A DNA stretch of 64,000 bases from Phlegmacium glaucopus (Eukaryota > Basidiomycota > Agaricomycetes > Agaricales > Cortinariaceae): NCBI GenBank assembly GCA_015039465.1, contig MU130695.1, forward strand, positions 645,394 to 709,393. The letters are read 5' to 3'. Each line of letters opens with the position of its first letter. The stretch's first letter is position 1. A program made the position numbers and the translations under genes. Shown here one piece after another: positions 1-20,002 of this stretch. Below the pieces are notes generated by a model. The model ran no database searches. It was not told the origin of the DNA and saw only the letters and a program-made list of their open reading frames with translations.

Positions 1-2641
1 GAAAATTGGGCAAATGTAAGTGATCTTTTTGCTGTAAATGAATTGCACTTATAACAGAAACTAGACCCAAAACCACTTGGTCATAATGGTGATTGATGCT
101 AAACGGTTTTTGAAAGAGAATTTTTATTTCATCAAAAGAAACAGTCTTGAAGGATGTCCCTCAGCATTAGCTTGGCTACCAGAAAAATCAGATATCTGGA
201 AAACATATGGAAGTAGAATAGAATGTCAATGGAAACTCTGTGTGGGAAGAAGAAATGCATGGAGCCTGTCTGAAGCAGTTCTAGAACATCCAGATTATGT
301 CAATTCTGTTGTCTTCTCTCCTGATGGTAGGCATATTGTGTCTGCATGTTGGGATCACACTGCATGGATCTGGAATACAGCCACAGGAGAGTGTGAAGCA
401 GAGCTGAAAGGACATTCAGACAGGGTCAATTCTGCTGTCTTCTCTCCTGATGGTATGCATATTGTATCTGCATCTTATGATCACACTGCACATATATGGA
501 ATACAGCCACAGGAGAGTGTGAAACAGAACTGAAAGGTCATTTAGGCAGAGTCTACTATGCTGTCTTCTCTCCTGATGGTATGCATATTGTGTCTGCATC
601 TGATGATTGCACTGCACGGATCTGGAATACAGCCACAGGAGAGTGTGAAGCAGAGTTAAAAGGACATTCATCCTGGGTTATATCTGCTATCTTCTCTTCT
701 GATGGTATGCATATTGTATCTGCATCTGATGATTACACTGCACGGATCTGGAATACAGCCACAGGAGAGTGTGAAGCAGAGCTGAAAGGACATTCATCCC
801 AAGTCAATTCTGCTGTCTTCTCTTCTGATGGTCTGCATGTTTTGTCTGCATCTTCTGATTGCACTGCACGGATCTGGAATACAGACACAGGAGAATGTGA
901 AGCAGAGCTGAATGGACATTCATTCTGGGTCAATTATGCTGTTTTCTCTCCTGATGATATGCATATTGTGTCTGCATCTTCTGATTGCACTGCACGGATC
1001 TGGAATACAGCCACAGGAGAGTGTGAAGCAGAGCTGAAAGGTCATTCAGGGAAGGTCAATTCTGCTGTCTTCTCTTCTGATGGTATGCATATTGTGTCTG
1101 CATCTTCTGATTTGACTGCACGGATCTGGAATACAGCCACAGGAGAGTGTGAAGCAGAGCTGAAAGGACATACAGATAGTGTCAACTCTGCTGTCTTCTC
1201 TCCTGATGGTAGGCATATTGTGTCTGCATCTTTTGATCACACTGCACAGATATGGAATACAGCCATGGAAGAGTATGAAGCAGAGAAAAAAGGACATTTA
1301 GACAGGGTCAATTCTGCTGTCTTCTCTCCTGATGGTATGCATATTGTATCTGCATCTTATGATCACATTGCACGGATCTGGAATACAGCCACAGGAGAGT
1401 GTGAAGCAGAGCTAAAAGGACACTCAGACAGGATTAATTCTGCTGTCTTCTCTCCTGATGGTATGCATATTGTGTCTGCATCTTATGATCACACTGCACG
1501 GATCTGGAATACAGCCACAGGGGAGTGTGAAGCAGAGCTGCGAGGACATTCACATAGTGTCAATTCTAGTGTCTTCTCACCTGATGGTATGCATATTGTG
1601 TCTGCATCTGATGATGACACTGCATGGATATGGAATGTAGCCACACGAGAATGTGAAGCAAAGCTGAAAGGACATTCATCTCAGGTTATATCTGCTGTCT
1701 TCTCTCCTGATGGAATGTATATTGTATCTGCATCTGATGATTGCACTGCACGGATCTGGAATACAGCCACAGGGGAGTGTGAAGCAGAGCTGAAAGGACA
1801 TTCAGATAGTGTTAATTCTAGTGTCTTCTCTCCTGATGGTATGCATATTGTGTCTGCATCCGATGATGATACTGCACGGATCTGGAATACAGCCACAGGA
1901 GAGTGTGAGGCAGAGCTAAAAGGACATTCATCTCAGGTCATATCTGCTGTCTTTTCTTCCGATGGGAGGCATATTATATCTGCATCTTCTGATTGCACTG
2001 CACGGATTTGGAATACAGCTACAGGAGAGTGTGAAATAGAGCTAGTTTATTCTGCTGCCTTCTCTTCTGATGATATGCATAATTTGTCTACATCTTATGA
2101 TTACACTCCACAAATCTGGAATATGGCCACAGGAGAGTGTAAAGCAGAGCTGAAAGGATATTCATCCAGGGTCAGCCCTGATGTCTTCTCTCCTGATGGT
2201 ATGCATATTTTGCCTGCAACTTCTGATCACACAGCACAGATCTGGAATGCAACCACAGAAGAATGTGAATCAGAGCTAGAAGGACATGCCTCTGTTCTAT
2301 CTTCATATGATAACACTCAATTACATGTTGTATCACCACTCCCTGAAGGTGTTTCTACCTGGAAAGATCCTTATGGCAACATTCATATCTCATCCCAGCC
2401 ATCTTTCCTTGCAAAATCTGAAAATACCATATTCCACACTAAAAACCTTCAGAGAATCTGGATTCCACCTCCTTTCTCCAAACCACAAATTATAAGTCAA
2501 CATCTGTCTAAGATATGCCTTGGATATATATCAGGGGAAGTTTTGGTTTTAGAGGTATGCATAATTCTTAGATTTTACTCAGCATTTTACTTCATTACTC
2601 AACATTTGTTCTCAAATATAGTTTCTGGATTAATGTTGTGA
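1..2641 (+). CDS. WD40-repeat C-terminal part of an NLR/STAND-type protein (5' partial)
   Basis: About 16 WD40 units of 42 residues (126 bp) run from about 281 to 2290. Each has a GH near its start, then VFSPDG, HIVSAS and an IWN strand end, so the protein should fold into one or two beta-propellers. The frame has no good start: the first in-frame ATG is at 86, just after an in-frame TAG at 62-64. A GTAAGT donor at 16 and a CTAG acceptor ending at 64 give a 49-bp intron that joins bases 1-15 in frame, so this is an internal exon of a gene starting left of the window. The stretch before the propeller (ALAWLPEKSDIW, residues about 29-40) resembles the linker before WD40 repeats in basidiomycete NACHT-WD40 proteins, so an upstream NACHT module is inferred. 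A possible last intron at 2555-2621 would end the protein at 2633 instead of 2641. Unit 15 is truncated and the last units are the most diverged. Confidence 0.8.
281..2290 (+). repeat. 126-bp coding tandem repeat, about 16 units (WD40)
   Basis: Near-identical 126-bp units, each encoding one WD40 blade. Central units share long exact stretches such as GGAATACAGCCACAGGAGAG. Differences cluster at a few codons: the two or three residues after GHS, and the residues around the SD/DD pair before TARIWN. The last three units are more diverged and one has lost about 6 codons. Confidence 0.9.
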
Positions 2642-4264
2642 ACTTCTCATCAAGCCTGGCTGACTGTTACCACAATTATTTTGCATTCTCCTTATTGTCA
2701 CTTGTCATTCAATTTTTTTTGCCATCCCCCCTGCATCCCCCAGTATGTTCTTACATCCATTTTTCTTGGTCTTTTTAGGTGATGTGTAGTGATGCCAGAG
2801 GTTTGAATTGGAACCAGTGGTATGTCAGGGAATAGCTTACAGTTAGCTATATCACTTACCTTCTTAGTGGTACATGTAACACACCTACCACCCCTCTTCT
2901 TTGGTTTACACCCATTTGATCTACACATCAGGAAGAAATAACTTGTATATGTAGCTGTATATAGTCACAGTAGTTTGAATATTCTGGTACACAAGTCCCC
3001 CCATACATAGCTTCTTGCAAGGTCTCAGTAGACATGAGTAGACATAGTAGCTGTTTGCTTGGTATAGGTAGCTGTGGATACCTCTCAATAGATTCAGGCT
3101 ATAGGAGCTACTGGTACTACCATGTTTAGATAGTTTCACCCTGCTGTATATATCCTTCAGTACTTTTCAAACTATGGGGGCTAACAGGGCTATATGTGGT
3201 ACTGAGACATGGTATTTGGAAGATAATTCATTGAATAATATATATTACAAACAAAACTCATGATATGATATGTAAAATGCTAGATCACTCCACCAGACTC
3301 CTGAAGATTCCCGTCGCTGCGCTCCATAGTAAATAAAAAAATAATACAACCCCCCTGGTGGGGGTCATCGTGTTCGTCAACCATATCATCGACATGAGGC
3401 TGTGCTGGTGGCCTCGTGGTTGTTGTTGTAATGGTCATCATCGTCATATAAGGTGGTGAGGTGGATGCAGTCGTGGACACGTTTGTGGTTGTTGTCATCG
3501 TTGTGTGACATGACGAGGTGTGGTTGTGGAGGGTGTGACATGGTGGTTGTGGGTGGTTAGTCGTGGTTGCTGGCGAAGTGTGGTGATGGCAATGGTGATG
3601 GTGACAACATTGAATCATCAGATTCAATGTCGTAGTAATCTAGTAGAAAGTAGGAAAATCCTCCCGGTGAAGGGGGACATTGTCATTAGCATTATAAGTT
3701 GTCAGAAAGAAATAAAAGTACCCCATGGGGGGTGTTTTGTTGAAGGGGGTTGTTGTTGGTACTGTGGCTGTTGTTGTCGCTGTAGAAGGGATGGGTGGGA
3801 AGAAAAAAAAAGATTGGTCGTATGATGTTACTGTTTGTTTGGCATCAATGTTTGCTGTTTGGGCGGTTTTGAACTTAGAGAATTTGTCTTGATGACACAG
3901 CCACTTTGGTTTGTCCGTCTTCTCTTGTAAGTACCTCTGTCAGAAAAATCTGATATGCCTTTTAATTCAGGTTTTCAATTTGGGAATTGTTGGTCAACAC
4001 TTGTCTTATGTAAGATTTTGTTTTACCTCAGAGCATCTCCACTTACAGATAATATAAGCCCAAAACAGAAATGAAGTTGAAATAAATTTAAGAAAACCAT
4101 AAGCCTACAACTAGAATACTGAAACTTACTTGCAACTTGATCATGCAACAGAAATTAAGTGAAGAATATGTGAACAACTGATGCTAGTGTGGGTGCAATC
4201 TGAGCAACTGATATTTATGTTGAATCTACTAGCAACTCCTGAGATAGTGGAATATGCTACTACA

Positions 4265-4326
4265 GACTACTGAGATGGTGCAATGGGCTACCACAGACTA
4301 CTGAGATGGTACAATGGGCTACCACA
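4265..4326. repeat. 31-bp tandem repeat, two full copies
   Basis: Two adjacent 31-bp copies (4265-4295 and 4296-4326) differ at a single base, GGTGCAATGG against GGTACAATGG. A more degenerate partial unit precedes them at about 4244-4264. There is no coding context. Confidence 0.75.
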
Positions 4327-4519
4327 GCTTATGACAACTATCAGATACAACTGGCAATGGTGGAAGAGCTACTGATGCAATGTACATTGGTGAGAAACTA
4401 TGGATATATATATTTTCCCCTGATGCAGTTATGTATATTTGTTATCTATGTTTGTATTTTTCTATTGATTGTTACCATGGTCCTGGCCACCTCAGGTACC
4501 ATTCATGTATAAGGTAGTG

Positions 4520-4541
4520 GTTGTCATTTTAGAATGACAAC
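4520..4541. other. Perfect 9-bp stem hairpin
   Basis: GTTGTCATT (4520-4528), a TTAG loop and AATGACAAC (4533-4541) form an uninterrupted 9-bp stem. It lies in apparently non-coding DNA and no function can be assigned. Confidence 0.5.
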
Positions 4542-5021
4542 TTTTCAACTAACTTGCTTACTCGGCAACATTGCCGCAACAATCCTCTCATTTAGTTCAC
4601 TGAGTTTGACTTGAAGAATTCATGTCCTAAGAATCACTGGAAACTAAGTAGCAAGAATTACATAAATCATACAATAATTGTGTAGGTAGGGCTGCACACC
4701 ACCTGTATTATGGGTACAGCCATCATTTTTACATGCCATAATGGCATAATGCTGCCAGGTCTCAATACCCATCCCATACTTCTTCATCCCATGATTCACC
4801 AAGGCAAGTTTGATATTGTTGACAATAGTATTGTCAGAAACAACTGTGAAAGATCATAATATCAGAAATGATTAGAAGACTTATGAAGAGAAATTGTCAG
4901 ACCAGAGGTTGGATGTGTTGAAGAAGAACCAGAGTTTTGAATGGACAGAAAATTGTCAAAAGGCTCTTGATGAACTCAACTAAACTGAAGCAACAATTCA
5001 CTGAGGAGTCAGGATAACAAC

Positions 5022-5374
5022 TTATTCTGGAACTCTGGACGACCTGTTGTGCCTCATGGATATGTACCTTGTTCTCATAATTTCATGACACCTTCCGTTC
5101 AAGTTAACACATACCCGGATCAAACTCCGGCGTGTGGATGGACGCGCAACGGAGCATTGGCTCCAATAACGATGCCAGCCAGTGACGACGGAGATAACAA
5201 TAGCGAGAATCGCAGCCTCGACGACATGAAAGGTTCGTTGAACTGCCTGCCAACCTACATAATAAGTTCTTCCTTCTAAGAGTATGTTATCATCAATGTA
5301 TCGTTTGCGTGAACAACCAGCGCAAAGTATAACCGCCATTTCTCGATACGGAAACAGCTAAACACTGAGACCAA
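5022..5374. other. 3' flank of the UstYa-like gene; doubtful 105-codon minus ORF
   Basis: A minus-strand ORF (5339 to 5022) starts 35 bp after the stop of the UstYa-like gene. It contains one hydrophobic stretch (AAILAIVISVVTG), and a GTATGT that could act as a splice donor lies inside it. I do not recognise it. Such close spacing to an upstream stop argues that it is 3' untranslated sequence rather than a gene. Confidence 0.3.
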
Positions 5375-6381
5375 TCAACTGATCACTGGAGGCGTCGGGA
5401 GATCGTCCTCAATAAACAACCGCGTATCTATCCATTTATGAATCCGCCGCTCCAGTGCCCAATCACGCAATTTGTTGAAATTTCGACATGAATGAGCCTG
5501 GGTGCTATGTCCCACAACCACCGACAAGTCGTTGTCCCACTGCCAGACATTCACGGAAATATCAGCATTACACCTATTAATTATCGTTCGTCAGATCAAA
5601 TCATCTCAAGACTCTGGGTCCAGGTCTTACATTAGGGATTGCCGTATCGAATCGACGCAATGTGATACATGCTCCTCATCCAGATCAGTGTCCTTGATGT
5701 AGTACTCTCGGTGGAGAGCACGCCTAATATTGTTCTATCGTCTGTCAGTTCGAATAAAAATATACATACAATGTAACCTGGACTAACGAGACAGTGAAGT
5801 TGGTGGAAAACATCAAGTTCTGCAATATAATAACCTGGTTGGTCCTTGATGGGATATGTCTTGTTCGGGAGAAGGATGGCCTCACTTCGTGTGATCTTCA
5901 TTATTGTATCTAGAGGCGCATTACTTGGAGTAAGCACGAGTGATCAAATAGAACTAACGGTTATAAAGCATTCCCCAAGCTCTGTCAACATCGTCTGAAA
6001 GGCCTTGGTAGATAGTTTTCTTTTCTCGTCCAGCAGTAAATGATTTCACCTCGTGTTCTAAAGCGACCTGAGCAGGTGCTGGAACGAAGCGTCAGCTACT
6101 AACCAACTTCAGCCAACCACGTGGACGATGGAACACCTACAACACAGCAGTGGGCGATCACTATATGGGCACATACATGACATCTTGGTGTCGTGAGAGC
6201 TTGTGAACATGGATACGACAAGAGCGACAGCCTGGATCAGGATGACGAAGAGAAGCACCACTTCCCGCAAAGCCAGCCCGTAGTATGTGGTCCTACATTT
6301 ATTCTGTGTAGAACATTCTTCTGAGGAGGACGGGTTCGAAACAAGAGGGAGATATACAGTAGATTCGTGGCCCATTGGCAT
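5375..6381 (-). CDS. UstYa-like (DUF3328) oxidase-family protein, 254 aa, five exons
   Basis: Exons on the minus strand: 6381-6162, 6078-5959, 5909-5788, 5734-5631, 5573-5375. Every junction is GT-AG and in frame, and the sum is 765 nt (254 aa plus stop). The product has a short N-terminal tail, one membrane segment (residues about 41-59), and the two HxxHC signatures of the family: HQLHC (149-153, in the context ELDVFHQLHCL) and HVSHC (176-180), followed by CNADISVNVWQWD. DUF3328 proteins are type II membrane proteins. In ascomycetes UstYa, UstYb and relatives oxidise and cyclise core peptides of ustiloxin-type RiPPs and act in cyclochlorotine and other pathways. Length and motif spacing match the family, and no lesions are seen. 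The gene is divergent from two secreted-peptide genes starting 711 bp and 1.8 kb away. The third intron uses the ATAG acceptor just upstream of AACAATATTAGG; the next AG would break the frame. The substrate is inferred, not shown. Confidence 0.88.
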
Positions 6382-6860
6382 ATCGGGGCGGAGGGGACAG
6401 TTGAGTAGAAGGTGGCTGCTTCATATTTCCCTGGTGTGACAAATGATCCCATCGAGATTAAGCAGTCCGCTGATCATTTGGAATGGGCGTTGAAATGGAC
6501 GTGAGACTTGGTACTATACCTCATGCAGGTCTCATGGATGAATATGTAGCGAGACATCGCGTAGGTAAATAATACCCGGGTGATATGCATCTTGCAAAGT
6601 TGTGCAACGGGTCAAACTGAATTTCCGCATTGTCCCCGCCGTCTGCAAAATACTTCAATTCAATAGGAATAGAATACATATAATCTGCGAATACTTGAGA
6701 GAACTCTGCTTGATCTGTTGAAAATTTGGCAATCTGGCTTCAAGTTCAATCAGCCGATGCGATTAACACCGAATGGTAAGGTGATAAGCAATCCTTGGGC
6801 AGTACACCAGGCTTGTTGCTATGTGCATGTCCAATTCATTTCGTGTGCAGCCCATGTCGA
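6382..6860. promoter_or_regulatory. Divergent intergenic region between the UstYa-like gene and the peptide genes
   Basis: It lies between the divergent UstYa-like and first peptide genes and must hold their 5' regions. I see no clear paired operator or TATA element. Short ORFs here (for example 6718-6963 plus) show no family similarity. Confidence 0.3.
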
Positions 6861-7091
6861 GCAGCCCATTCCTGGTACAAAACGACAGTCAGCAGATCCA
6901 TTTAATTACAAAAATACTGTAACAGAGGATCGGTCGTTCAATGTTACCACCCAGAGAAGTTGACGGCCGTCACCCTGAGTCCACAACGTGCCCGTAAAAT
7001 ACTAACTAGCCTCTGTCACAACCTCAAATACGGGCGTTGATGGTGCTATGAAGGTTCTTTTCTCCAGTCAACTCTGTGTCATCAACTCACC

Positions 7092-7455
7092 ATGAGATTC
7101 GCATTACTTTCTTCTCTTGCTTTAATTGTCTGCCTCGTTCACGCTGCTCCTGTTCAACTTCCGCGCATGGTAAGCGCAATTGAACACTTCATGTAGAATG
7201 GTATCCAAAGGACTCACTTTCCACCCCAATACCAGCGTTGTCCCATCCGTCGTGAAGTAGATCTCGACGTCTCTATCGCACACGGCCCTGACTCGTTTTG
7301 GGTTCGCCGAAATTCTGAATCGGCCTTGGTCCGCAAGGAGGTTAGAAGTTTTGTTATTGAAGCGCCAGCTCGATCCACGTTGACGCTATAACATTGATTT
7401 ACAGGCTGGTGTAGAAATAGATACGGATTTAGCCATCGCTACTGGCTGGTGCTGA
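7092..7455 (+). CDS. Secreted small peptide, candidate RiPP precursor, copy 1 (77 aa, three exons)
   Basis: Exons 7092-7169, 7236-7340 and 7405-7455, with introns of 66 and 64 bp (GTAAGC..CCAG, GTTAGA..ACAG). Residues 1-20 form a strong signal peptide (MRFALLSSLALIVCLVHA, then AP). Pairs of basic residues follow at 31-32, 50-51 and 59-60, as expected for Kex2-type cleavage. Two stretches after these sites resemble each other: EVDLDVSIAHG (33-43) with a Trp at 48, and EIDTDLAIATG (65-75) with a Trp at 76. Such repeated cores between basic pairs are the layout of UstA-type precursors. The protein ends in WC and has one further Cys in the mature part (28). All exons conserve frame with copy 2, which supports the model. 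Orientation and nearness to the UstYa-like gene suggest co-function. It could instead be an ordinary small secreted protein. Confidence 0.82.
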
Positions 7456-8145
7456 ATGAAGCCATCTGAGAAAAGGGAGAAGAGGTTGTTGGCGTGAAAG
7501 CAGGAACTTGACGGAAACAGGAATACAGCGGTGATGTGTATATTATAACTGTCGCAGTGCTGGGGATACCGGAATGAGAAGCTGGAACATGTCCTGTAAA
7601 TTCAGAAAGTAGTGAATAACTTAGGATAGCAGCTTCTACGAGCACTGGCAAAGAATCCACAAGATCATTTCGAACGTTAGTTAACCTCAATCATGGAGGA
7701 ACTTAGAGGAACGGGAAAGGCCATCGACCCTGCGCTTGATGAAACATTGATGTTGAATCCCGCTATACCTCGTAGGGCTTATTGTGCTTATCGATCTGCT
7801 CTACAATCGTAAGAACCCCATTCATGCTTACGTTCCCGAAGTCGTTTCTGTTAGATTCTTGTCTAAATATGGCATCCAAATTCTTACCTGGGTAGAATTT
7901 CCAGCCCAGATATTCCACTTCTTTTCGGGTGCGCACATGTCTAGCTGTTAATTATTCGACCAGTCCATTCCTGGTACAAAACGACAGTCAGCAGATCACT
8001 TCAATTTGGAGAGAGATACCGCAACAGCAGATCGGTCATTGAATGTTACCACCCAGAGAAGCTGACGGCCTTCACCCTGAATCCAGAACGTGCCCGTAAA
8101 ATTGTTAGCCTCTGCCACAACTTCAAATACGGGCGTTGACGGTGT

Positions 8146-8151
8146 TATAAA
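8146..8151 (+). promoter_or_regulatory. Possible TATA box of peptide gene copy 2
   Basis: TATAAA lies 31 bp upstream of the start codon of copy 2. The same place in copy 1 reads CTATGAAGG, so the motif is not shared. If it is used, the 5' leader would be very short. This is a weak call. Confidence 0.3.
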
Positions 8152-8181
8152 CTCTAGTCAACTCTGTGCCATCAACTCGCC

Positions 8182-8528
8182 ATGAAATTCGCATTACTTT
8201 CTTCCCTTGCTTTAGTTGCCTGCCTCGTTCACGCTGCTCCCGTTCAACTTCCACGCTTGGTAAGCGTAATTGAACACTTCGTGTAGAATGGCATCCAAAG
8301 GACTCACTTTCTACCAGCACTGTGTTCGTCGTGAAGTAAATGTCGACGTTGCTAACGAAAACAGCCCTGATACAAATTGGATTCGCCGAAATCCTGAATC
8401 GGCCTTGGTCCGCAAGGAGGTTAGAACTTGTGTTATTGAAGCTCGATCCATGTTGACGCTACGGCATTGATTTACAGGCCGGTGTGGAGATAGATACGGA
8501 TTTAGCCGTCGCTACTGGCTGGTGCTGA
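8182..8528 (+). CDS. Secreted small peptide, candidate RiPP precursor, copy 2 (76 aa, three exons)
   Basis: Exons 8182-8259, 8318-8419 and 8478-8528, with introns of 58 bp each at the same positions and phase as in copy 1. The signal peptide (MKFALLSSLALVACLVHA) and the C-terminal part (ESALVRKEAGVEIDTDLA, then VATGWC) are almost identical to copy 1. The segment between the first two basic pairs (residues 32-48) differs strongly: EVNVDVANENSPDTNW, against EVDLDVSIAHGPDSFW in copy 1. Basic pairs at 30-31, 49-50 and 58-59 are kept, as are the Trp before the second pair and the final WC. A variable middle core between conserved processing sites suggests diversification of a released peptide. Function is inferred from layout and from the neighbouring UstYa-like gene. 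Confidence 0.82.
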
Positions 8529-9030
8529 ATGAAGCCATCTGAGAAAAAGGGAGAAGGGGTTGCTGGCGTGAAAGCAGGAACCTAGACGGAAACAGGAATA
8601 CAGCGGCGATGTGTGTATTATAACCCCCGCTGCGCTGGGGATACCGGAATGAGAAGCTGGAACATGTCCTATAAATTCAGGAAGTAGTGAATGACTTAGG
8701 ATGGTAGCTTCTACGAGCATTGGCATCCAAAGAATCCACAGGATCATTTCGAACGTAGTTAACATCAGTCATGGAAGAACATGGAGGGAATCCAGAGAAC
8801 GGGGCCTGTCCTTGATGAAACCTTAACCATGAATCCCGCTATACCTCGTAGGAATCATTGCGCTTATCGATCTGCTCTATAATCGCAGGAACTCCATTCA
8901 TGTTTAAGTTCCCGAAGTCATTTCCGTTAGATTCTTGTCTAAATATGACATCCAGATTAGCACCTCAAGGGTTGGAAGAAACCCATATTCTTACCTGGGT
9001 AGAATTTCCAGCCCAGACATTCGGCTCTTA

Positions 9031-12000
9031 TGTAAAGCGTAGCGGTCACTGAGCCAAACAACATCGAGAGGTTAAGTGTCGAGCAGGCGTTCTTAGGGAC
9101 CCTGCGTTGCACGTCGAGCACCTCCCTAAACTCCGTAAACTCTTCAACGCCCTCGTCCGCCATCGCACCCATATCGTGCTCGAGTTCAACCCGGAGGTTG
9201 TACACGAACCCGAGCTCAACGACGAACCCATTGTGGAGGACACCAGTTGCCCAATGTCAAAGCGGAGAGCGGGACGCCTCTTCCTGTCCTGCGTTGTGCT
9301 CGAGCATCTCCCTAAACTCCAACGCCCTCGACCTCGTGCCCGTGTTCGTGTTCACCTCGGCCTCAATGCTAGACAACAACCCTACTTCAACGCATCCCGA
9401 TCTTGAAGAGGTATACAAAAGTGGCTGAATAAAGTCCTGTGTGACAGAAACGTGACAACGGTAACTTTCGTAGGAGTGACGTGAGGTGACGTGTCTACCA
9501 GCGGCCACTCCACGCTGTGATAGCAACTGGCCAGGAAACTCATCTCAGGCCTCAAATGGTTATCTTGTCACTCCCAAATATTTTAAAGCGAGATGGGATA
9601 CGAGCGAAATGGCCAAGTCCCACCGCGTTTAAAACCCACTTTCAACTTCCGTTTAACACTGAACAGAAGCTCCCCTGGCGGGTGACAATAGTAGTAAACC
9701 TGGATCTGAAAAAAAAAATCTCAATATATATGATATATGGACTCCCAACCTATAAACCCTCAAGACTCTCTGCTAGTGACTCCGAGGAAAGAGTGCGTCG
9801 GCATATCTTACGACACGACTGTCGAGGGAGAACTTCGATTTTATTTGACCAGCGCGATTAACTCTGGAGCTCGTTGTAACTGATTGCATGTCTATAGTAC
9901 CAAGGATACCGTATCCCCAGACTATCAAACTGGAGACGCTCTGGGTGTTTGCATAATTCTTTGCATCCTGGTTTCGGAACTCTGGTCTCTCCGGTTAAAG
10001 TTCCCTTGTACCTCTCCAAATTATTTAGAGTTGCCTGTTCTTCAGACCGACACTCGGACTGTATTAGAACCCGATTCTGTGCTTACGATGGACTCTTGTA
10101 GTTTGGGCTGTCATTGACTTGAAAGTCGGCTGAGTGCCAAAAAACATCACCAAAGCAACGGTGGTTATATTTGAAGTACAGAAAAAGATTGCGATAAGAA
10201 CAGGACCTTCAACGTCGAATCGACGAACACATACGTTACTATCATGGCTTCTGCACAAGACCTAGGTACACGTTTGGGCGAGTAACTATTATCTCATGGA
10301 AAAGAACAATGCGAAGGTTCGGATGCTGCCTCGCAGTGATGTCTCACAGCTGTCTACGATGCCTTCACCAGAAGTAGCATTTTTCGAGAAGATGGTGAAG
10401 AGAAAAGGACTTGCTTCACCACCGACTTCCGAGGTGACATTAACTTGCTATGTCATTTAGTATGGCGAAGCTCGGACTCTCCACCATGCCCAGTTATGCG
10501 GAACTCCCACCTCCATTCACAGGATGCCTTCTGCCCTGATCATGCTTGTTCTGTGGCGGCCGGACCGTTCGTTATCGGAATAGTGTGACAGGAGATGTTC
10601 GAGAGTGCGCAGTCGAAGATATTGGGGCAAAATGAAAGGAAGTTAGTATATGATTACGAACAAGGGCAGTGACGAGTAGATGAAAGATATCCTTGCTACG
10701 CGCCTGTAGCTGCATAGATCCGAATGCTATACATTTTCTTATTCACAAACTGTTTCAAAATGCCAGCGACGCCGGAGTTCTCACTCCTATGTAAGTGGCT
10801 GAGCTCAAAAACCTGTTATCGGCGTACTCGGACCATTAAAAAGATACTTTCTGAGGAGAACAGCCTTCCAATCCACGTAGGTCCTCTAAATATGGTCATG
10901 TCAATAATATGGATGTATGGGGTTCTCATGAAAAAAAAAAGTGTGAGAGTAGAGCTGAGTAGAGGCCATCCTGAGAGTTTCATTGAGAAGCTCCAAGTCT
11001 GGAAACTTGGGGGCCTTCGAAAAATGAAATTGCATGATTCGATGTAACGTTAGACCCAGCATAATGATCCTAAATTTATTTTTTTGTGATGTCGATTTTA
11101 GCTTTGGCTACACGGGAGTACACGGGACGACGAGAACTTAGTAACACCGGAACAGCTGATATACATCCACATAGAAGTTATTAGAACCAAACGACGTTCT
11201 GAGAATACACGCTGCTATGGGTGAAGCTCTCACACGCGTAATTTGAGAACACCGATTCGCTGGGCGATACTCACGCCGCGAAGAATTCTCTTCGCTATTA
11301 AGCCTTACGGAAAAAGTTCGGAATCCTAGCATGTACGGTGGGAAGCTGTGGGAAGAAAGGCTAAAAATCAAAGAGGACTCGGAGGGAGGCCCGAATTGAT
11401 CCGACATCCGGATTCTTGGTTGAATCATTCCGCCACGAAGTGTCCCCCCTGTGCAATTAAAGTATCAGTGAGAAAAGAAGTAAAAAGCCGTCTCACACTT
11501 ATTCATTCAGTATCCTATCTGCGGCTACAACGTTTTGGACAGATGGTGAAGCTCTTGAGGAATATCGAGAAATTACCATCAAGCGATGGTCTGCAAAGGT
11601 CGCATGAACCTCCTCGTCAGACGAGGTCAGACGTGTAACAGTGTATTCCACATTCTTTTCAACTTTCCCGAATAGGATGTATTACAAAGAAAATTTTTCG
11701 CTGTAGAACGATTCATTGTGAGTGTGGCAGCGCAAGGTTTCGTAGCTCCAACTCCAAAGGATGCCTCGGGGCACCACCACAGCCAAGGGAGTGAGAGAGT
11801 TTGACAGTACAATGAAAACACAGCGCGCGCGTGACCAAAGCGTGGGCTGGTGTAGTTGATCATGGGATAAGTGAATACTAAATACCAAGCTTGGAGACAA
11901 GGGACGAGGGGCCATAGCTCTTGAAGAGTAAGCAGGGTCTCTTACCGTTGAGAGAAAAAGCAGTGGCCATGTGCCTGCTTCCAAGACTTTGATGATATCG

Positions 12001-15000
12001 ATACGCCAAGCCCGTCAGTGTCACGTTCGAAATAAATATGGAACAGGAACGGACGGGGGAAATTTCGAAACCTGGTTATAAAACAATTGTCAATGGGATT
12101 CAGTTATTGACAACAAGTGAGAAATAAAGAGGAAAGCTCACAGCAGGGGCGAGAGTCAGAGAAGGCCAAGGCTGACCAAGGTCGAACAAGAATTTTCATA
12201 ATACTTATCCACTAATGGATAGATCATAGATGTACAAGTTGTTCGAACAGACCACAATTTGCAATGCTCCACAATGTCGCAATTTTGTGCAATGTTGTTA
12301 ACGAGATTAAGCAAGGTTGAAACATTGAGACGTTGATGCGTTGATATTTATAATTCAGATTGAGAGGATGTCGTCGAATGGAGAGAATTTATCCTTAAAA
12401 TGTGTGGTAAGCGGGGAGAACTCTAGGTAACTAGGGGTGGGGTAAGAGGCTAAGAGCGTATGAAACAAGTCTCCAGTTGTCTTCCGTATCAGTCCCGTAT
12501 CCGTATCTCGCCACTTTTTGATCTAAAACTTTTTGTACTTTTTTTACAGATTTAAAAATGGAAATCGTGGAAAACTGATGGAGGGTCCGGCCTGGCCTAT
12601 GTATATGTATAAATTAAGTGACAGTATACAATTGGCGACTTGGACATGCCACATATGGAGAAATCCAAGTTTTTTTTTTCAAATTCCTCTACAGAGATCC
12701 TTGTGAAGTTCCATTCCAATTTTCACCCCCATCGAGTTCAAAGAAGGGACATTTTGATCAACTTCAACACAAAGGGTTGCACAGCCTATAGGTTGGGGGG
12801 TCAAAACTGCACACATTGGAGTCAGCGTGCAAGAAACACGGGAGTAGTAGGGTCAAGATGTTTTCGAAATCCGGTAATCAATCCTTCAACTTGAAGCTCA
12901 AATTCAATAGATATCTGGGCCTAATGAATATTCAATATTTGCTCTAGTTTGTTCATTTTATTAACCGACAGTAAGTCTCCTCAACTGTCTAGATTGCCGG
13001 TTTTCTCAAAATTCATTCAATGGAGCCAGTGGAACTCGTCTCCTGGTCGGCGCTCCATGCAATCTAGTATTGAATTTATTTGAGCAAGAAGAAACATAGA
13101 TGGTGTGATATACCTTAAGACCTACTTACCCTGAAATGTCCCATTGGTTTAAGAATATCACGGTCCTGAATCCTGATTCACGGATCCTAGAAAAATGCGC
13201 CCAGAGAAAAAAAAATGCAGACATTCAACTGTTACCGAGGGTTATGATCATCGAATCCCCGCGGACGGACCCAGCACATCGTTAATCCCGTTAAAAAACC
13301 ACTTTTTTTTGAAATTTCATGATCAGCGATTCATACCCATGTAAATTAAGCATCGTACTGTATTAAGTCTAGTGCACTTTCAATTGATGGAACTTTGGGA
13401 TGAGTCAAGTATGTATCTTATTTCCGAGTTTCAGAACACCGGCATAAGCAGGGAGCTAAGCAGGGTTGCACAAGTAAGGGATTTCTAAATGTATTATACC
13501 AAGACTTTCACTTGAGTTTCGTCGCACCTGCCGCAGCTGCGACGTGTGAGTCCGTCGGCACTTGTGAGTCTTTGACATTAAATTTCGAATACAAGGAACC
13601 CTATATATACGGAACATATAGAGGCATTTTTCGTCTGGGAGCTATCATGCTCAGTTGGGAAACCTGAAAAAAAAAAAAATCATGATTGTCTCTACACCTT
13701 AGTCAATCATCTCGTTAACCTATATAAGAAACTTATATTACCGGCCTCCTAAATACGGTCATATTCACCTTCTGGGATGGTACGGAACGGCAGGCCCGGC
13801 CTGCGGTGGGTTACGGACTCGGATCAGAAACCGGTCCTTCCTTTGTGTGTGACTTTCGGATTTGTTCTTCCTCCCCGCTAAGTACTAAATATGATGCTCA
13901 TTTGATTATCATCATCATCACCAAGCGCTTTTCAGGTTTCATTTTAACCCACCCCACCCCTTCCTCCAAATATCATTGTTGGAGAAAAAAAGATGGCAGA
14001 TGATGATATTTCACCGTATTGTATGTGTGTGTGATATTTGCTTCTAGATCCTCCCCTGACATTGACATGAGAGAGTCGAGGGGATTGTTGTATACAATTC
14101 AGTTTCAAAAGGTTCGTACATGCATATATACATACCATATAGTATGTGGGGTTGATGGAAAAAAAATAGAAACGTTTGAGGCCGAGGCCTGTCGCATGCC
14201 ACAATATGCCAAACCAGTAAAATAGCCGTCGGTTGGGCGAAGCGTGTTGGAAAAAGGAAAAAGAAAAACTTCGACAATTTTTCGAAGCAAGGCTCGCTTA
14301 AACATAGGGCAACCAACATTTTCATAATATGCTCCAAGTGGCTCCAAGTGGCTCCAACTGAGAAATCAAGTTCCGAGATAAACCAGAATAATACAGTAAT
14401 AATACCCTCTCTCCACAGCTCTCCACTGATCATGGTATCATGTTTCAGCAACAACCCATATATATATATATATATCATAATTTGATCAAGTTCGAAGTTT
14501 GGAGTTGGCAAGTGGATAGATAATCAATATAGGGTCCGTAACTGGTTTTTTTCTCTGCACAGGTTTTCCGTATGTGCACGCATATGCAACTGATGAAACT
14601 CGACATTCGACGACAGAGCACAGCAATATTGCAGAGCCTCCTCGTCATGCGTGGGTTCGGTCGATTCTAGCCACCGTGGTGGTGTGATTGATATATGGCC
14701 TGACGTTAGAGGGTGAGAAGGTCATGCATTCTTGGCTGTTCGCTACTACTACGTGTTACAAACCGGTGTATAAAAAAAAACATGAACGGCATCAAAACAA
14801 AACAAAAAAAAACTCAATCATCATCATCATGCATTCACAAGGTCAGGCATACCGCCTTCCTATGTTCAAGTGGAGAGGTGGATATTCATCAAAAAACTCC
14901 AATAAGAACAAATGGAAGGTCTTTTTTTATTGAACAAAAAGCCGCTCTGTCAGGAGGTTGCCCAGGTTGCAACGAGTCAGCTGGCCTCGAATGGGATGTG

Positions 15001-16001
15001 TATCATGAATGGAAGAGTTTTTACTTTTGGATGAAGGCCGTGAGATAGTCGATGAGAAATTGATCATGATGGAGAACTACGGGCTTTTTTACATATAGAG
15101 GCTTTCAGGGTAATGCACCGCTGCGCATGCGAAAGTAAAAAAAAAAAGTGTTATGTATTGGAAAAAGGCAAGTCAACCAATTGTGTAAAAAGCCGCAGTT
15201 CGTTTCTGTACTTCTGATTGCGCAAGACCTCGTGAATCATAATCGGGGGGTTAGGATGTGTAATGAAGAATTCGAAGGGTTTGGAGCTTATGCTATTTTT
15301 CTACTGGTTTCCAATTCGACCTGCAAACGCTAAAAACCGAGGTTCTTTCTCAGTGGCGCGCGATATTACACACAGCGATTATCGATAAATTGGATGGATA
15401 GCAAGTTACATTGAGAATGGATTTCCCACCGATATCACAAATAGGAGTCAAGTAGATATCGATAATACGTATTGTAAGCTGGGAAGGGCAACTAGGTACT
15501 GAAGATTTATAAGGATGATATGATAGATTAAAAACACGTTGTATACAGTAAGTAGGATTTGGAATGGGATAAGAGACGATAAGGACCGTCTTTCATTTTT
15601 TTTGGGAGTCCGCAAAGTATGAATGGGAGATATGGTACAAATGGTGATGTGGCTGCATTGATGTAGAAGCCAATTAGGAATAGTAACAGGTACGATTAAG
15701 AATAAGTTGGACCAGAGTCTTGAAGTATTCAAGGGGGAGGGTCTGAGATGATTGATGAATGAAGATGAGTGCCGATGACCGTATGTGTGAATAGATAGAT
15801 ATAAGGGGGGCGTGTGAGCGCGACCAAAAGGAAAGGAGACGTTATTGTTGTTGACGTGCGTCTACCATCGCGAGAGCAAGGTGCAGACGACCGTGGAAAG
15901 GGGCGACGAAGCTGATTCCGCTTACGTGTAGATGCGGAGAAGAAAGTTGTTGTTGGAAGGGAAATGGTGTGAGATAATGACTGGAATGACTTGTGGAACA
16001 C
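9031..16001. other. Gene-poor intergenic region with simple repeats
   Basis: No ORF or exon chain with recognisable motifs was found. 9060-9440 is GC-richer and holds imperfect direct repeats around CTCCCTAAACTCC and CAACGCCCTCG; all frames are open there by composition, so its ORFs are not trusted. 14331-14360 holds about three copies of a 10-bp unit GCTCCAAGTG, and 14457-14475 is a (TA)n run. The 14044-14511 minus ORF is rich in Phe/Ile/Tyr and unlike any family I know. Bases near 16001 are probably 3' untranslated sequence of the zinc-finger gene. Confidence 0.45.
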
Positions 16002-16765
16002 TTATTCGAAAGCGTACTCCACTGCCACGGAACATGCTTCATTGGATTGAGCATCTCGTCCATGTTGACGCAGACTTTGCCGTGTGGGAAAGCAGGCATC
16101 ACAAGCAGGACAGGAATGCATTCCTAGTCCGAGTGAGATGATACTGCGGTCAGAACACACGCTGGAAGCCGAGCCCGATGAGCGTGAGCGTTTTGATGTG
16201 TGAGAGATCTAGAGGTGTAGCCGATTAGAAAATGCTAAGGTGAGTGTGTGTGAGTAAGATAGCATACATTATCGTCATTGTCAAGGATGTGCTGTTCCAT
16301 CTCTTCCAACTTTCGTTTTAGTGAAGTTGAATCTGGGATGAATAATTAATGAGACGATTAGAAGGGTACTGAGTGGCACATACCGGAGATGAGCTGAGGA
16401 GACTGTTCTCTCCATAGCAGTATACGCTTCATTCTTCCTGAGAAAGTATCTGTTGTTGTTGTTCTTGGAGACAGAGGGACCTCCATTTCGTCGAGTGGCA
16501 CATCAGAGGAGCAGTATGATGAGCCAATGGATTCCTCTTCCTCCTCCTCCTCCTCCTCCTCTTCTTCTTCTTCTTCAAAGGACGACGACGATGAGGATGC
16601 TGCTGAACTTGAGTTTATGACGGAGGAAATACGACGTGGTGGGGGTGAAGCGACCTCGACGAGCTCGATGACTCTGTGTGGTTGACGGAGATATAGATTG
16701 CCTGAGATGATTTTATTATCTTCGTTATGAATGAAGATATCTGATGAGATGTGTTGTTCGAACAT
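16002..16765 (-). CDS. C2HC zinc-finger protein with acidic tract, 217 aa, three exons
   Basis: Exons on the minus strand: 16765-16384, 16332-16268, 16208-16002; introns of 51 and 59 bp are GT-AG and in frame. The N-terminal part has Ser-rich segments and a run of about 17 Glu, encoded by CTC/TTC repeats at 16540-16576 on the plus strand. Exon 2 encodes a short charged helix (LKRKLEEMEQHI). Exon 3 has a Ser-rich stretch and then CDACFPTRQSLRQHG with a Cys further on (SNEAC), which is a C-x2-C-x11-H-x8-C finger at residues about 187-208. The protein ends VAVEYAFE. The tail, from the finger to the final E, is of a type I recall from basidiomycete nuclear proteins, so DNA or protein binding in the nucleus is likely; the target is unknown. 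It lies 272 bp downstream of the MKT1-like gene on the same strand. The start is the first ATG of the open frame. Confidence 0.72.
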
Positions 16766-17037
16766 TGTTGGAGGGGGGGAGTAATGGAACTCGGCGGTGA
16801 CATGTGCATTTTTGTAGTCGTTTGGGAGAGTCGCATAAAAAAAAAAACAGCGGTAACAGCAAAAGGGATCTGAGATCGGGTAAAAATGATTTTCTCATCT
16901 GGTCCCATTTGGGAAGTGTTAAATCGAGATCTCTCCAATAAACACGGACTCCCAGACTGCACATCTCCTTATGTTCTATCCATTTTAATTGCAATTGTGT
17001 CAATCTTATCGTCTCACGCCATCCCTGTCTCCTAATT

Positions 17038-20002
17038 CTAAGGCCTCATGGGAGCAAGCCAAACTTCAGCGGCTTCAAATTGCTCAATCAACTCGGTCAA
17101 CACTGCACTCTCAGAATGCAAATGTCGCATCGCAGCAAGTGCCTGGTAATTAATTTAAATTAAATTAAATATCACAACAAGTCACAAAATATTCAACTCA
17201 CCAAGTCCCAAAATCGGAATCCTCTTTCAACTTCAAGTTTAGGCGATTTGACACCAGGGAACGTTTCCTCGCAGAGATCAAGAGCCATTTCTTTTGCCAC
17301 TTGTACACCGGGCGCGTTGGGATCCCGAACTCTGGTCCCATTGTTAATGTGGGTAAGGGCGTCCAAGTACACCTTTGCCAAGACACCAAATCCAGTGTTC
17401 ACCTCCGTCTGGAAAGGAAGAGAGAGCGTGATATCCAAGAAATCATCCCGGGCCCGTCGTGCGTCGTTCCGGAGAAGCATATTTAACGAGGTTACCTCCA
17501 ATAACGTTCTCAGCGCTCGAGTCAAGGATCGTACGAAAGAATTGAACACAAGTAGTTCCCGGGACAACGGAGCGGACCACGGCACAGGCTGCGAAAATAA
17601 AAAAATATGGGTCATCAATTTCTCAAGTCCTATTTTGGTGGAACCGCGGAAGCGACGTCCCGTCCAAATAAAAAGTCGACATACCTTGAAGTTCAATGGG
17701 ACGATGCTGAGAACTCGCATGACTAACAGCATACACTTCTTCTCTTCGTCTATACAAGGATAAAAGATAACGTGAGAGTCCGCCTCACATCGGTGATGAC
17801 AAACATACCTGTTCCAAAACTCGGCCCTCCACTGAATGCCCGACCAGACCACAAGTGACCATGCATGACGCCTGCCCTCACTAGTTCCAAGAACAAGTAG
17901 AGAGGGTCTTGGAATTTATCATTGAGCCGAGCAAATTTAATCGTATTGTACATCGCCCGAGCCAATGGGGAGTGCGTATGCGAGTTAAGCAAGAACCTGC
18001 AGGCGGTGATAGAATCAAAAGTCAGCAACCATAAAATTAAATATGATGGGCAACAACGGGAAGAAGTATTGATGACATGGTCTCATGCAACCAAAGCCAG
18101 AAATAGATTGAAAAGAGCTCACCCTCTCAGCTCAAGGAAGCGCCAAATCACATTGGCTACTATTTCGTCCCTTTTGTCGAGTGGAGGGGGTGGAGGCGTA
18201 CTCTTGCCCTTGGTACGGTTGGCAAGTCGCTCCGTGGCAGTCGCACCTAAGCACAGTGCGAAATCGAGCGTAGCTGACTAGAAAAAGAGAAGCCACGGCG
18301 GGAGAGGCAAAGGAGATGGGAACAAAAAAGGAAAAATTAGTTTAACTTAATCATAGACCATCTTTTCCCAGGCAGTACAGCTAAAGAACGGAGCTTACGT
18401 TCTGCCTCCTCAACTCGTCTTCGACAACGACTGATGGAACGTGCCACCCAGTGACACGCTCGGCAAGCTGAGCCGTCTGAGGCGCATTGTGCTGAATGAA
18501 CCTGGGGTTGTGCGAATTGGGTTGTTCGAACCAGAAAAGACCTTGAACCTTCTTGCCACTCCAAAAAGTATGAGCAATGCTGCTTACAAGGGCCAAAGAA
18601 GTGGCCCTCGGTCCGGTTTGGCCTTCCGTTATAACTTCTTTGACAAAGCGTTTATATTCGTTGGTTTCCCCATTGTCCAGGGGCGGATTTTCTACAATTT
18701 GTCCAGTGGTAAGCCAGACAAGAGCTTGCGGGCCCAGAAGACCGCGCGAGAGATAAAAGTAGATTTCGTCAGGCAGCCGGTGTGTAAATATCTCTTGCAA
18801 ATCCTGTGGGATATCCGCGGCCGTAGGATGGTGATGATTCGAATGCCCATGAGCGGGGTTGGTGATAGCCAACGGCAACGGCAAAACTGTGCCTTCGGAT
18901 GAGAGAATCAAGGAGTATTTTATCATCGCGCGTGTACGAGCAAAGTGATCAGCATACTGAATTGTCTTTACCGCGGGATGGTCGGAGAAAGCCTGGACAG
19001 CTGCATGACCTGACTTGTAATATTTGACTATGTCAACGGTTGCTTTTAGGGCATGCTCATGGACAGTGGGAGGGAAAGGGGGTGAGTGATCGAAACCAAC
19101 GAGGATACCGATGTCCAGGAACTGGTCTTCCGATACGGAGAGCTCCTGCATGAAAGTCCGCTTAGACGTGTATTGAAACGATGGGTTCACAGAAGTCAGA
19201 TCAAGGGACGTAATCAGTTTATCAACGCCTGGGTACAGAAGAGTATCTGTTGGCCCAAAAATTGCATGGATGTAGGATTTGTGATGACGTTGGAGATAAA
19301 TCAGCTGTGAATTCAAGTGCAAATCAGCATTTTTATTCTTTTAAAGAAAAAAAAGAAACAAGTGCGTCCTTTGAAAGGACGGACGGCGAGAAGAAGCCAG
19401 TGTGGGAATGAAAATCGCATACCTGAGCCCAAGCAAGGTATGGCGCGATGAGGAACTCGACGTTTCGATGTTTAAAAATCCTCAAGACCATCCTCCATAA
19501 GTCCCACTGAGCGAAGTTGCTTCTTCCCTCAAATAATTTTGTGGCTGCTTCCTCCTGTCCCTGCTCGTATCTGGCCCACGCGTCACGTCTGTCCCTGCAT
19601 GCCTCGACGTGTTCTGAGTGGTGGTGTTGCTTCCAGCGTTTGTTAGGAAGGAGTCCTGGGAATACAAAGACGGGTTTTATTCGCAATTTTTCGAGTGCAC
19701 GTAAATCGGATTCGATGCGTTGGGTGAGCGCTAAAGGCAGTCCACCAGTTGCAGCCAGCAACGGTTCACGAGATGGAGGGTTGTCCATCAACAATTGAAG
19801 ATAATAAGAGGCATCGATACCAAGACGCGAATCCGAAAGTACAGAGAGAGGAAGAGTCTGAAAATGTTTTCGTTCAAAAAGATGGTCTGCGAAAAAAAAG
19901 GAAGAAGGGATTCGCGATTTAGTACGTTTAGAATAGCGTTTGGACGTCTCAAAGTCCATTGTATAACTAAGTTTTCTCACTTTCAAGGTGCTTGATAGGC
20001 AT
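17038..20002 (-). CDS. MKT1: MKT1-like post-transcriptional regulator (XPG/PIN-type fold), 763 aa, eight exons
   Basis: Exons on the minus strand: 20002-19981, 19886-19423, 19304-18399, 18277-18123, 17996-17809, 17749-17685, 17588-17202, 17142-17038. All junctions are GT-AG and in frame and sum to 2292 nt. The N-terminus (MPIKHLE, then LGIDASYYL at residues 29-37 and KPVFVFPGLLPNKR) is an XPG N-terminal domain. APYLAWAQLIYLQ and LDIGILVGFDHSP correspond to the XPG-I part, and the rest matches Mkt1 N- and C-terminal domains. In yeast Mkt1 binds Pbp1 and controls translation and stability of specific mRNAs in the cytoplasm; the nuclease site is usually degenerate. The tiny first exon (22 nt) was chosen because it restores the family N-terminus. 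The longer open frame from 20076 reads through intron 1 and is rejected. The gene looks intact. Confidence 0.88.

Follow-up and report, generated by a model that had tools for sequence, protein, structure and literature searches.

The 64,000-nucleotide (nt) stretch of DNA analysed here (the window) comes from the webcap mushroom Phlegmacium (Cortinarius) glaucopus, as a spliced peptide and a UstYa protein encoded in it are annotated proteins of that species. It carries a gene for a UstYa (DUF3328) protein, UstYa A, that is divergent from two tandem genes for small secreted peptides; a second UstYa and precursor pair (module B) lies outside the window. The evidence indicates that this locus (module A) is probably a UstYa-modified, dikaritin-like two-part system for a ribosomally synthesised and post-translationally modified peptide (RiPP) with Tyr-free Trp cores. 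In window coordinates its features are:

5375..6375, minus strand: UstYa (DUF3328) gene A, five exons, 259 amino acids (aa), the annotated protein P0004.
6376..7091, no strand: divergent intergenic region between UstYa A and peptide gene 1, homologous to the equivalent spot in module B.
7092..7455, plus strand: precursor peptide gene 1, exons 7092-7169, 7236-7340 and 7405-7455, 77 aa.
7254..7301, plus strand: core of peptide 1, EVDLDVSIAHGPDSFW.
7405..7452, plus strand: C-terminal core-like segment of peptide 1, AGVEIDTDLAIATGWC.
8182..8528, plus strand: precursor peptide gene 2, exons 8182-8259, 8318-8419 and 8478-8528, 76 aa.
8333..8380, plus strand: core of peptide 2, EVNVDVANENSPDTNW.
8478..8525, plus strand: C-terminal core-like segment of peptide 2, AGVEIDTDLAVATGWC.
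6857..8958, plus strand: tandem duplication holding both peptide genes, about 6857-7882 and 7956-8958.

The UstYa A exons (6375-6141, 6078-5959, 5909-5788, 5734-5631 and 5573-5375, minus strand) are separated by GT..AG introns, and their spliced translation matches P0004 (BYT27DRAFT_7121368, 259 aa) at 100%. Spliced peptide 1 is the annotated protein P0001 (BYT27DRAFT_7264236), and no database record for peptide 2 turned up in protein similarity and profile searches. The peptide genes are tandem duplicates with 84% identity across about 1.0 kb. UstYa A and peptide gene 1 are 0.7 kb apart, and in module B too UstYa is divergent from a precursor gene at 0.7 kb. A preliminary description of this DNA had claimed an intact DUF3328 gene with both HxxHC motifs and two secreted-peptide genes within 2.2 kb of it; both claims were borne out, the span between the start codon of UstYa A and the peptide 2 stop being 2.15 kb. 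The probability of one given locus falling within 2 kb of a UstYa-like locus is 7e-4 for the 11 such loci counted, and 9e-4 if 13 are assumed.

UstYa A matched PF11807 (DUF3328) with 153 bits against a cut-off of 25 (E 1.4e-44); this match, the dN/dS comparison (nonsynonymous and synonymous divergence), the homologue search and the sequence-based PDB search were run on a 249-aa splice model, the 259-aa annotated form being the correct one. Both motifs are intact, HQLHC at residue 154 and HVSHC at residue 181. When P0004 was aligned with 42 other sequences (43 in all; the homologue search gave the best 120 of 274 matches), the metal-site residues H154, H157, H184 and C185 were invariant and C158 and H181 were at least 90% conserved. 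Named Agaricales relatives at 52-83% identity, among the matches listed, were from Crucibulum, Flammula, Galerina, Gymnopilus, Cyathus, Armillaria and Coprinopsis. The AlphaFold model (predicted local distance difference test, pLDDT, 82.3; predicted template modelling score, pTM, 0.67) has an N-terminal transmembrane helix at 32-61 and motif helices at 151-165 and 179-195, a predicted arrangement that fits the one described for the dicopper enzyme CctR. A PDB search by sequence gave one chance match (E 0.91) and none with a profile, and with a threshold of E 0.001 a search by fold found nothing resembling UstYa A. DUF3328 proteins are copper enzymes requiring HxxHC(x)nHxxHC, the dicopper, O2-dependent dimer being demonstrated for CctR only (PMC12435403).

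The two precursors share one architecture, beginning with a signal peptide whose start was selected in both by a hydropathy heuristic. In peptide 1 the signal peptide is followed by RCPI, RR, EVDLDVSIAHGPDSFW, V, RR, NSESALV, RK and EAGVEIDTDLAIATGWC, and in peptide 2 by HC, V, RR, EVNVDVANENSPDTNW, I, RR, NPESALV, RK and EAGVEIDTDLAVATGWC, so that the pairs RR, RR and RK are present in both and the core is flanked by RR on both sides. The C-terminal segment, EAGVEIDTDLA[IV]ATGWC, is core-like, its mean score over six cores being equalled or exceeded in 0 and 1 of 5000 shuffles; against the cores singly, the shuffle fraction was below 0.05 in 10/12 comparisons. It appears to be a weak copy of the core. 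The shuffle test thus backs the two related segments per peptide of the preliminary description, and its proposal of Trp-ending rather than Tyr-type cores was also supported, the cores being Tyr-free. The C-terminal WC proved to be no family trait, as it is absent from the module B precursor, P0002, and not visible in the annotated model of a further precursor, P0003. The three conserved basic pairs hold for the window copies, which are tandem duplicates, and fail in the wider family.

The eight cores outside the window are preceded by SAR, GR, CTR and GR (P0002, P0003), HR (P0125), HR (P0124), and GR and ARR (P0126). A single Arg therefore precedes seven of the eight and RR only one, so that conserved dibasic sites are rejected as a family trait, and the conserved Kex2 pairs claimed previously find no support in that form. 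After Trp, RR is found in 5/7 Trp-bearing cores, and a single Arg in the other two (VRQ, VRH). What is common to all cores is Arg followed by Glu at the core start, and the Arg-Glu bond is the presumed site of cutting. An ascomycete alpha-pheromone-type Kex2-processed repeat protein (KEP) was also considered and rejected: the XA/XP dipeptides (STE13 sites) are absent after the Kex2 site, where RR is followed by EV-DL or NV-DV.

When the two window copies are compared, the nine codons that form the middle of the core are hypervariable, with 17/27 nt identical and 7/9 residues different, compared with 107/116 nt identical in the introns, 170/185 in the 3' region and 71/78 in the signal-peptide exon (core middle versus introns, Fisher p 3.5e-4). 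The contrast is weaker against module B, where 20/24 (copy 1) and 17/24 (copy 2) nt are identical. Within this variable core, the position two residues before Trp (−2) is S, T, S, T, T and S in the six P. glaucopus cores and T in P0126 unit 1, so that all seven Trp-bearing cores have Ser or Thr there, as do both C-terminal segments (T). P0124, P0125 and P0126 unit 2 were set aside before this count for want of Trp. At −2, copy 1 uses the codon TCG and copy 2 uses ACA. When residues were shuffled within cores, Ser or Thr occupied −2 in 6/6 P. glaucopus cores in 14/100000 shuffles, and any residue class filled any of six columns in 122/100000.

Module B lies 14 kb upstream on the same contig and is also intact. 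UstYa B (247 aa, model) differs from UstYa A (249-aa model) with dN 0.038 and dS 0.112, and the divergent P0002 gene encodes two cores, EVDLDVSNGGPESIW and EVDLDVSIANGPTFW. Elsewhere in the genome are four truncated UstYa copies, on contigs C104 (two), C124 and C213, none of which has a DNA match to exon 1. They are adjoined by flank pieces (intergenic or 3'), of just 28 bases for the second C104 copy; pieces of the intergenic region recur on C104 and C213, beside the truncated copies, and at another place on C124. Translated searches of 9.9-kb stretches around each truncated copy found signal-peptide or core exons at 0/4, so precursor exons adjoin 2/2 intact UstYa genes of the clade versus 0/4 truncated ones. 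Trp cores go with intact UstYa genes, in small numbers. The decayed copies are:

C104, L019 989-1919 and 4224-4620: truncated UstYa and flank pieces, no precursor exon.
C124, L031 4720-5656: truncated UstYa, no precursor exon.
C124, L031 9065-9757: flank pieces only.
C213, L032 4247-5060: truncated UstYa, no precursor exon.
C213, L032 1411-1555: flank pieces only.

Precursor relatives were sought with a profile of four precursors, which matched six proteins among 1584 candidates, four from P. glaucopus and two environmental (P0124 and P0126). P0003, the fourth precursor, is annotated on a 7.1-kb contig and has two Trp cores. P0124 (E 1.2e-6) lacks a Trp core, and an intron seems to have been translated in its model. 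P0126 (E 5.4e-3), a distant relative on a 913-base environmental contig, has the units REVDSDVSEGGIGTRW and REVDLDVSEGGDGTRR, both of the form EVD.DVSEGG.GTR[WR]; its existence suggests a precursor family that extends beyond P. glaucopus. UstYa A, in contrast, has the named Agaricales relatives given above. A conserved enzyme with a fast-changing substrate is the pattern that a RiPP would show, but absence of the precursor in other species is weak evidence, because short split genes often escape annotation. On contig C240 of P. glaucopus there are P0125, a precursor-like gene 4 kb from a contig end, and also a 5' fragment.

Other UstYa genes of this genome also have secreted peptides beside them. 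At least eight UstYa-like loci exceeded the profile cut-off, including the C104 remnant, and 11 were counted after further searches. At 5/7 non-remnant loci (modules A and B, C68, C137 and C148) the UstYa match has a candidate secreted precursor no more than about 1.5 kb away; at C74 and C23 none was recognised beside UstYa. The C68 precursor, unrelated to the window family and single-copy in the genome, is a 112-aa spliced protein in which a signal peptide precedes five repeats, nearly identical and about 13 residues long; the gene is divergent from UstYa at about 0.7 kb, and a separate 39-nt exon encodes each middle repeat. Here too Arg is followed by Glu, in GPR-ELEEFTDDIQAKYG and then in GR-EEFTDDIQAKYG four times. 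The secreted peptides of the C137/C148/C83 family are about 54-67 aa long; their start is conserved, as is their end, [FI]FRG....[ED]EP.R, and the stretch between is variable. Six members are on C137, one on C148 and one on C83; those on C137 and C148 adjoin UstYa genes, and a profile search of the genome found no UstYa on C83. A simple splice rule yielded a model for 6/8 members. As A and B share a precursor family, and C137 and C148 likewise, these loci amount to three unrelated UstYa-peptide pairings. A scan for dibasic-bounded repeats near the other UstYa genes found nothing and carries no weight, because it missed the window precursors too. A repeat test was non-discriminating (1/18 signal-like starts in five UstYa loci versus 4/43 in control stretches, which include L033, beside a UstYa locus, and L017, which holds precursor pieces); the evidence for the C68 precursor is its spliced sequence and not the repeat test. 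The positions are:

L021 (G000:C68:1-9900) 5255..4649, minus strand: C68 repeat precursor, signal peptide, then EL/E-EFTDDIQAKYGR five times.
L020:8046-9200 and L033:667-5500 (C137), L024:6504-6780 (C148), L034:4974-5200 (C83): C137/C148/C83 peptide family.

The proposed mechanism is as follows. The signal peptide would direct the precursors into the endoplasmic reticulum and Golgi; a cut after Arg (RR or single) before the conserved Glu would free the core start, EV[DN]xD...[ST]-x-W, and a cut at the basic site after Trp would free its end. The divergently encoded UstYa, anchored by one helix, would oxidise the core, most likely joining the Trp side chain to the Ser or Thr at −2 in a three-residue ring, with a predicted loss of 2 H. 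We place the crosslink at exactly these two residues tentatively, with clearly less than even confidence. Because the residues between the fixed core ends would be free to change, duplication could yield a small library of related peptides.

Several observations weigh against a UstYa-modified RiPP. The dibasic sites are not conserved; the cores have no Tyr, the residue at which crosslinks are known in ustiloxins, phomopsins and asperipin (PMC7329392); and three precursor-like units (P0124, P0125 and P0126 unit 2) lack Trp. The shuffle fractions and p-values are optimistic, because the core rows are paralogues. Homology between the modules is unbroken across window 5301-7334, and A and B are therefore one segmental duplication, not independent cases. 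The matches listed for the surrounding frames include no recognised tyrosinase, peptidase or transporter, though short exons could hide one. Finally, profile and DNA searches of the genome found no UstYa on C240, the contig of P0125. The preliminary description had taken widespread peptide homologues without a DUF3328 neighbour as grounds for refutation; P0125 is one instance, close to a contig end and with its core Trp also lost. As for the basidiomycete RiPP system proposed there, a RiPP-like pairing of UstYa with secreted cores and the Trp-ending, Tyr-free cores are supported by the second module, the hypervariability, [ST]-x-W and the unrelated pairs, while the Kex2 pairs and the WC are not supported in the form given there.

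Some of these points would be expected if the peptides were secreted in linear form for signalling, antimicrobial defence or symbiosis, with UstYa acting elsewhere and riding in the same duplicated block. A single block duplication accounts for the second module, P0125 has no UstYa on its contig, and 1577/1680 basidiomycete KEPs have no DUF3328 gene within 15 genes (PMC7329392). We nevertheless consider this unlikely, given the three unrelated UstYa-peptide pairings in one genome, the missing precursor exons beside 4/4 truncated UstYa copies and the retention of S/T-x-W within a hypervariable core. If UstYa does act on the precursor, it might do so otherwise, by hydroxylation, by a crosslink to another partner or at the C-terminal GWC only, a sub-case of UstYa modification whose chances are counted within it. 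DUF3328 proteins also hydroxylate and halogenate (PMC12435403), and the GWC segment is nearly identical in both copies while the core varies; set against this, Ser/Thr at −2 is the sole kept position of the variable stretch and P0002 has no GWC end, leaving such chemistry possible but on the doubtful side. A tryptathionine at the C-terminal Trp-Cys, with a relation of the locus to the cortinarins, disputed Trp-Cys cyclic peptides reported from Cortinarius, is highly improbable. The genus is the same in the wide sense, both window peptides end in Trp-Cys, and PMC13289786 found no prolyl-oligopeptidase-type precursor gene in its Cortinarius genomes. However, no core has Cys, P0002 lacks GWC, and a secretory signal peptide with a UstYa neighbour contrasts with a cytosolic pathway; no similarity to the published peptide was seen, in work that included no genome-wide search for cortinarin precursors. 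UstYa modification of the secreted cores thus stays the preferred reading. That the locus represents a new class of basidiomycete UstYa RiPP, with a Trp-Ser/Thr three-residue ring, Arg-Glu cleavage, module duplication giving a species-specific library and at least three unrelated precursor families, is rather doubtful as a whole.

The surrounding genes were scanned as open frames of at least 85 aa in window 1-20000 and the 20 kb upstream (80 frames, 76 scanned, best 25 of 54 families); a rescan of 35 window frames gave only MKT1 (17196-19340). WD40-repeat genes flank both modules (window 65-2638, plus strand; L015:2631-3086, minus strand), and the region flanked by them looks fast-changing. 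On the same strand as UstYa B, and 2.4 kb from it, is a cytochrome P450 exon (L015:8155-8652, minus; C237:633654-634151), the rest of the gene being guessed.

Among known systems, the MSDIN/cycloamanide family (amatoxins, phallotoxins) resembles the window family in being a gene family with a variable core between conserved ends; its precursors are not known to have a signal peptide. The window peptides have one, and no core Cys, which also separates them from cortinarin-type precursors. The dikaritins (ustiloxin, phomopsin, asperipin-2a, victorin) share with the present locus the signal peptide, the basic-bounded cores and an adjacent UstYa gene with both HxxHC motifs. The residues linked in ustiloxin and victorin lie two apart. 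The links join aromatic to aliphatic side chains, Tyr-Ile in ustiloxin and C-terminal Phe-Leu in victorin, and dikaritins are placed under ascomycetes (PMC9233826). Here, by contrast, the host is a basidiomycete, the core has no Tyr and ends in Trp, the proposed partner is Ser/Thr, relatives have a single Arg before Glu, and no tyrosinase or peptidase was recognised nearby among the matches listed. As for several dibasic-bounded cores, a mark of dikaritins, RR flanks the window core, the second core is weak and relatives mostly have a single Arg. The MSDIN pathway differs in its cytosolic oligopeptidase (PMC9769878), as against a signal peptide and UstYa neighbour here. CctR shares with UstYa A the DUF3328 family, a membrane helix at the N-terminus and a pair of adjacent helices that bear the two HxxHC motifs (PMC12435403), but hydroxylates a non-ribosomal cyclic peptide, cyclochlorotine.

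Within basidiomycetes, Pleurotus has 16 UstYa-like genes (PMC8893723). Searches of the open-licence literature turned up neither a characterised UstYa RiPP from a basidiomycete nor any account of the present precursor family, and the available parts of PMC9233826, PMC9769878, PMC12435403 and PMC8893723 describe no chemically proven basidiomycete UstYa RiPP. Closest are the basidiomycete KEPs with a DUF3328 neighbour, which have the same architecture and neighbourhood as the window genes: in 103/1680 a DUF3328 gene lies no more than 15 genes away, and W occurs in one of the listed types, P-3 (PMC7329392). The window genes differ in having only one full core and a weak second copy. Basidiomycota are thus already known, from that genome survey (PMC7329392), to have UstYa-linked repeat precursors; to this kind the locus would add a testable crosslink site and its putative chemistry. 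It offers a compact two-gene test system with a named crosslink site, [ST]-x-W, natural core variants on which that site can be tried and, for comparison, the unrelated UstYa-peptide pairs of the same genome. If the proposal is true, UstYa chemistry would extend to Trp linked with hydroxy-amino acids and would also take in a fast-diversifying mushroom peptide family.

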